Shown one piece after another: positions 22,911 to 27,527 of a stretch of DNA of 64,000 bases. The stretch covers positions 310,001 through 374,000 of the forward strand of contig CAMBLG010000001.1 of the NCBI GenBank assembly GCA_945868435.1, given 5' to 3'. This DNA is from an uncultured Lachnospiraceae bacterium. GTDB lineage: Bacteria; Bacillota; Clostridia; Lachnospirales; Lachnospiraceae. The position numbers were made by a program, and so were the translations under genes. The stretch's first letter is position 1, and the number at the start of each line of letters is the position of its first letter. Under the pieces are notes generated by a model. The model had not been told where the DNA came from, ran no database searches, and saw nothing but the letters and a program-made list of their open reading frames with translations.

Positions 22911-23108
22911 TTGTAACTATTCAGAACCCCTTCCATACATTCGCAAAAACAGCCCGTCTACCGGTCTGTCGCTTCTTCGAAGCTTTCTTTTTGCTCATAT
23001 ATGGGGCGGTGACTCTATTCGAGCCACCTTACGAATAAGATAATCAGCCTCTTACATGCAAGCATGACGATTCTGCTTATCTTATTCTTAGGGGTTCTGA
23101 ATAGACAA
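22911..23108. repeat. Structured intergenic element with terminal inverted repeats and several nested hairpins
   Basis: CTATTCAGAACCCCT (22917-22931) perfectly inverted at 23090-23104, extending with a 2-nt gap to 22911/23108; internal hairpins including 23033-23047/23073-23087. Confidence 0.75.
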
Positions 23109-26797: not shown

Positions 26798-26820
26798 ATT
26801 ACATATTTGCAGACATACTA

Positions 26821-26851
26821 AGAACGGATACCTCGGTATCCGTTCTTTTTT
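26821..26851 (+). terminator. Intrinsic terminator after glgA
   Basis: AGAACGGATAC-CTCG-GTATCCGTTCT followed by T-run. Confidence 0.9.
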
Positions 26852-26854
26852 AAT

Positions 26855-27506
26855 GCGAAATTGCGAGATGTTTGCCCGCTTTTCTCCGAACATAATATGT
26901 TTCATTCTATTTTGCAGCTTGCTCACGATCCTTCTACTCATGGATCCAGAATCACGACTTTGTTGCAGCATGGATTTCTCTTTTCTTATGATTCGTGTCC
27001 GCCGAGACAAGGAGCACTTGCCATGCAGATTACGCTAATGCGTATGGACAAGTGCATTGATAATGCCCCGTGACCGGGGCATTACAGGCCTCGATCAATT
27101 TCCGCCGGATGTTCGCCCAAGAGTGAGAACGGCTTAGAGTGATTCGCATTTGCCTTACATGGGCGCATGAACAAAATGTGCCGCCGCAGGGCAACTGTTT
27201 GAGCAACACAGTGTGGCGATATCTCGTTGTACTCGAAGCGAGTTTTGCCCAAGGCGGCTCATATCAACTTTGTGAAGGCGCCCATTTAGGCAAATTCGAG
27301 GAACGGGTTAGCCTTCTCACTTGGGCGGACAACCGGCGGGAAATTGTCGACACGCATTTCGGACACGAACGTTCAGAAAAATCCATGCCGCTAACAAAGT
27401 CAGCAATTCTGTCTAAATCGTTAGAAGGATTCGTGAGCAAGTTCGCAAAAAAGACATTATCGTTTTTCTGTTCGGAGAAAAGCGGGCAAACATCTTTGAA
27501 ATTCGA
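26855..27506. repeat. ~650-bp imperfect full-length palindrome (foldback element or giant hairpin RNA)
   Basis: 27-bp perfect terminal inverted repeat (26866-26892 / 27469-27495) plus at least six further complementary blocks in the correct nested order down to a tip at ~27195-27244. Confidence 0.9.
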
Positions 27507-27527
27507 ATAAAAACAGGGGAGGGAACC

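Follow-up and report, generated by a model that had tools for sequence, protein, structure and literature searches.

ERIC, Correia and RUP are examples of bacterial MITEs and foldback elements, and OLE, GOLLD, ROOL and HEARO are large bacterial noncoding RNAs. In bacteria a long palindrome is as a rule unstable, owing to cleavage of the hairpin by SbcCD. Palindromes of the REP/BIME type are 20–40 bp long and are moved by RAYT (Y1) transposases (PMC3733652). Template switching yields homogenisation of the arms of a quasipalindrome as well as inversion of its spacer (PMC8604942; PMC8794818).

The giant hairpins described here resemble MITEs and foldback elements in being dispersed, non-coding, intergenic, patchy and multi-copy, with an inverted-repeat structure and sites that are empty in relatives. 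They differ from them in measuring ~250–900 bp and in being complementary from end to end, in having arms that co-evolve and differ between copies around a conserved tip, and in that neither a target duplication nor a parent insertion sequence has been recognised. Like REP/BIME sequences they are palindromic extragenic repeats that probably act as DNA hairpins, but they are far longer and several high-copy carriers have no match to a Y1 transposase. Homogenised arms, two-sided compensatory changes and spacer inversion are shared with quasipalindromes corrected by template switching (PMC8604942; PMC8794818), yet the published cases are short and not dispersed, whereas here families with very long arms and a conserved tip are found. 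With the large noncoding RNAs, the likeness lies in size and in the elaborate conserved fold of the tip; unlike them, the hairpins have no Rfam match, and their arms lack an RNA-type G.U signature.

The first member lies between glgA and the tepA-like and ftsK genes of the window, the whole 64,000-nucleotide stretch of DNA that was analysed. Inverted-repeat search and folding delimit a quasi-palindrome of 672 bp. A sequence-only reading had described a self-complementary interval of ~650 bp at 26855–27506; the palindrome is real, while its limits required revision, the arms reaching ~10 nt farther out on each side. The neighbours that it had named were recovered with Pfam, glycogen synthase being followed by the element, a Clp-protease/TepA-like protein and FtsK; the element sits between two + strand genes. 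The features of the locus are as follows.

26820–26847, + strand: glgA intrinsic terminator, next to the element; element-free relatives have a terminator at this position too
26845–27516, no strand assigned: the entire quasi-palindrome (copy c1; eight copies in this genome), from the outermost inverted arms and the fold; ends approximate
26866–26892, no strand assigned: left outer arm, copy-specific; exact reverse complement of 27469–27495
26910–27467, + strand: core common to the copies of this genome, ~85–97% identity by blastn and alignment; internally deleted in copy c8
27004–27089, + strand: optional module of ~86 nt in the left arm, containing a pair of small hairpins, from blastn and alignment of copies
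27148–27295, + strand: conserved tip domain, from the match to covariance model R1 and the tip alignment
27171–27178, + strand: ACAAAATG, on the 5' side of an internal loop; conserved in tip alignments
27195–27203, + strand: CTGTTTGAG, on the 5' side of the apical internal loop; conserved in tip alignments
27239–27247, + strand: CGAGTTTTG, on the 3' side of the apical internal loop; conserved in tip alignments
27261–27273, + strand: ATATCAACTTTGT, facing ACAAAATG on the 3' side of its internal loop; conserved in tip alignments
27469–27495, no strand assigned: right outer arm, copy-specific, with a GCAAAC motif, from the sequence and inverted repeats

The arms are nested. The outermost pair, 26845–26895 with 27466–27516, spans 51 nt at 84% complementarity and includes the exact 26866–26892/27469–27495 match that had been pointed out beforehand; inner pairs join 26928–26952 to 27406–27430, 26965–26981 to 27375–27391, and 26981–27001 to 27360–27380. 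Complementarity thus spans the entire element, and inverted-repeat ends are present. Folding of both strands, which the sequence-only reading had proposed, gave energies far below those of shuffled controls: −326.4 kcal/mol for the + strand (z −23.3), where 20 dinucleotide shuffles gave −190.1 ± 5.9 and none did as well, and an almost equal −322.9 kcal/mol (z −18.8) for the − strand. A coding explanation was rejected, that reading too having recognised no coding product: the 123-aa ORF of the element has no Pfam match, and its length and frame differ among copies.

A blastn search of the own genome (37 contigs, genus Agathobacter; G000), likewise suggested beforehand, found eight dispersed copies on seven contigs. 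The ~86-nt module is present in c1–c3 and absent from c4–c8, which makes it a removable part of the left arm, and in c8 the tip is partly deleted on its right side. Some 30–50 bp at either outer end are specific to each copy, yet the two ends of every copy pair with one another; close to the outer end of all eight copies stands some form of a GTTTGC motif, located at the glgA copy within the left arm at 26866–26892. Across 462 kb of this genome, scanned at one alignment setting, full-length hairpins of such size were found only at copies of the family. The idea that the element inserts into pre-existing large hairpins was rejected, because that scan shows no empty ones.

Weak matches pointed to related giant hairpins in the Agathobacter genomes G012 and G447, and a covariance model (R1) was built from the ~150-nt tip. 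It places the family in 14 of 63 Agathobacter species at up to 30 hits per genome (G007, 30; G012, 18; G445, 16; G447, 11; G003, 10; own genome, 8), hit counts being dependent on the model and several genomes being incomplete drafts. Outside the genus the model found the family in 6 of 396 sampled Lachnospiraceae genomes, belonging to other genera, and a 394-genome sample of the order added no further positive genome. All Agathobacter copies that were refolded proved to be giant hairpins, as did seven of ten loci outside the genus, where long arms were present; weak scores were obtained for the other three, L199, L201 and L197, the last lying at a contig end. Rfam (Rfam 15) gave no family at gathering thresholds and only chance-level matches at relaxed ones; by eye, too, none had been recognised beforehand. 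Pattern searches of IMG/VR, phages and plasmids gave no match to the element, nor did the exact core pattern in GTDB genomes; a looser core pattern matched two Agathobacter MAGs and, at a site lacking a hairpin, one Minthenecus MAG. Searches of the open-access literature under the names tried turned up no account of such hairpins. This is a patchily distributed giant hairpin DNA family that has apparently gone undescribed so far.

The tip is the most constant part. Internal loops recur in tips from several genera (TTCGTG../..CTAGAAA; CTTAG/CTTAG; ACAAAATG../..AATATCAACTTTGT; CTGTTTGAG/CGAGTTTTG), the apical hairpin varies in length, and the stems vary in sequence between species with pairing kept, i.e., they covary. 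Of 1,020 paired cells, 909 are Watson-Crick, where shuffling gives 550 on average and 584 at most. The count leans to the consensus, since it omits the poorly aligning tips G438, G003, L103 and L199; 26 of 28 pairs show at least two Watson-Crick types. On the + strand there is a mild bias towards G.U (103 vs. 64 pairs; among mismatches, G.U over A.C by 31 vs. 16), and given this weak bias the tip may have a role as RNA or one specific to a single strand.

The arms behave differently from the tip. Identity between copies falls from ~100% at the tip to the alignment background at ~250–300 nt on both sides (in several pairs of G000 copies the left-arm curve is distorted by the ~86-nt module), while the arms of each copy stay complementary although that identity fades outward. 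Compensated arm cells in three genomes number 81, 198 and 47, where column shuffles lead one to expect 28, 64 and 25; as for the tip, these counts treat copies without correction for relatedness. Clustering of the compensatory changes, which template switching would lead one to expect, was not significant and so speaks against the mobile-DNA account with DNA templating. The earlier surmise, that the arms either go back to an ancient duplication or are maintained by compensatory change, was a good one: they change together, apparently at the level of DNA. Selection for an RNA stem would be expected to tolerate G.U and not A.C. The arm mismatches, G.T against A.C, stand at 33:39, 63:66 and 50:53 in the three genomes (146 vs. 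158 in total), and over whole elements the folding energies of the + and − strands are equal (mean difference 0.13 kcal/mol, n = 40). Because of this balance and these equal energies, arm complementarity looks, on sequence grounds, like a property of the DNA. Covariation by itself is consequently no proof of RNA, since massive compensation occurs here with a G.T/A.C balance that points to DNA.

These data bear directly on the main rival explanation, a structured noncoding RNA of great length that would act through its tip, with one gene per copy, a tip that binds a protein or other target, and arms that form an RNA rod. A tip with constant internal loops and with stems that covary strongly across genera is what such an RNA would be expected to display, as are the slight + strand G.U preference there and the extreme folding energy; against it stand the arms without G.U preference, the equality of the two strands, the absence of an Rfam match, the lack of any promoter-like site in the scanned region and a copy number that reaches 30, at varied loci. 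We consider this explanation unlikely overall, and for the arms the long hairpin RNA offered in the sequence-only reading was not supported.

The insertion sites speak for mobility. Between glgA and clpP the relatives have a much shorter gap, and no element occurs in the eight that were read, one of which (G005) carries an unrelated quasi-palindrome of ~110 bp there. Five of six relatives are without an element between spoVG and pth, the sixth (G438) having its own diverged member at that place, and at two loci of G445 the relatives checked have no insertion. Element-free relatives possess an ordinary short terminator at the corresponding places. By a crude ORF caller, which misjudged the own c1 copy and was used without a baseline, 26 of 55 copies lie between convergent genes. 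This last count, together with the terminator-like hairpins that some copies have in either outer arm, would suit a transcription insulator or bidirectional terminator useful to the host; the proposal is nonetheless improbable, since the relatives make do with short terminators, copies such as c1 also lie between tandem genes, and neither a patchy distribution nor a conserved tip is necessary for termination.

Several copies of G445 stand out. In L133 the core is flipped relative to the outer arms, L130 looks chimeric, with two arm types combined with mismatches, and L123 and L126 hold terminator-like sequence that is near-perfectly inverted in both outer arms. The flipped core and the chimera bring to mind the spacer inversion and arm homogenisation that template switching yields (PMC8604942; PMC8794818), and the sequences of L123 and L126 suggest that flanking DNA can be copied in inverted form. 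On account of the latter two, inverted duplication of host target DNA at each insertion was considered; it was set aside as the main model because identity fades gradually, with no sharp end, and copies that looked alignable farther out by eye also counted against it, though it may still play a part.

Ends inspected by eye are GTTTGC-like in the own genome and GGGGCTGTYGC-like in G445 and G007; outer arms differ among copies, and no clear target-site duplication was seen. No autonomous copy was noticed, and no mobilising gene was recognised in a transposase search directed at Y1. Most high-copy carriers have no Y1 transposase: matches to Y1_Tnp are absent from G000, G445, G007 and G447, which have 8–30 hits of the hairpin family each and are 71–96% complete, and also from G458, G451, G096, G126 and G214, some of them incomplete drafts. 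The missing Y1 in the four high-copy genomes argues against mobilisation of the REP/RAYT kind. We consider it very doubtful that the hairpins are MITEs belonging to an ordinary DDE-type insertion sequence, or REP-type elements moved by a Y1/RAYT transposase: dispersal, non-coding character, inverted-repeat structure and empty sites would all fit, but no target duplication was seen, and length and end-to-end complementarity are unlike those of REPs of 20–40 bp (PMC3733652).

The hairpins probably constitute a non-coding, non-autonomous family of foldback/MITE-like mobile DNA, whose tip is structured and conserved and whose arms co-evolve. The copies are dispersed, sites are empty in relatives, the tip covaries, and the arms are free of strand bias. 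The foldback/MITE-like alternative of the sequence-only reading is supported by the dispersed copies and empty sites, whereas target-site duplications and a mobilising gene were not recognised. The element would fold as single-stranded or cruciform DNA, and its tip may serve as the recognition site for a trans-acting enzyme responsible for spreading. The arms would be kept complementary by templating of one arm on the other in DNA, through template switching during replication or through repair, rather than by selection for a stem in RNA. Copies may be homogenised by recombination that centres on the tip, from which the outward fading of identity would follow, although the fading could also come from selection focused on the tip. 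Insertion would be mostly tolerated between genes, frequently at their 3' ends.

A bolder and rather doubtful version of the mobile-DNA reading is that these hairpins are a new kind of selfish bacterial DNA, spreading as a folded hairpin recognised by its tip, with arms rewritten jointly at each locus by DNA templating. If so, copies would have the tip in common and arms that are private but self-complementary. A genome with up to 30 hairpins kept complementary at the DNA level would offer a natural setting in which to study template switching and the tolerance of palindromes, and the conserved tip would be a concrete ligand for capturing the enzyme by which the family is moved.

With regard to palindrome tolerance, a full SbcD match is missing in most high-copy carriers. 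Among carriers, copy number is higher where no full SbcD hit was found (two-sided p = 0.014, in an exploratory, post hoc comparison of draft genomes without phylogeny correction), while presence or absence of the element shows no correlation with SbcD (p = 0.32). Separately, the full SbcD match is absent from many Agathobacter species, near-complete genomes included.

Other hairpins occur in the same genome. A second dispersed palindrome family of ~90 bp, CTATTCGAGCCACCTTACGAAT...ATTCTTAGGGGTTCTGAATAG, is represented in the window at 23014–23105, with further copies at C2:83390, 225334 and 226927 and at C4:89761 and 149123. Its tip, CATGCTTGCATG, is conserved and its arms vary but pair, which is the principle of the large family in small; the copy at C4:149123 keeps the tip with quite different arms. 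Two related hairpins of ~165 bp, C2:151736–151902 and C2:195897–196061, have the unpaired motifs AATCGACAGTA / TACGAACTCGATT in common and possibly belong to a third hairpin family. The window also contains a T-box leader at 1640–1881 (Rfam RF00230, E 1.1e-23).
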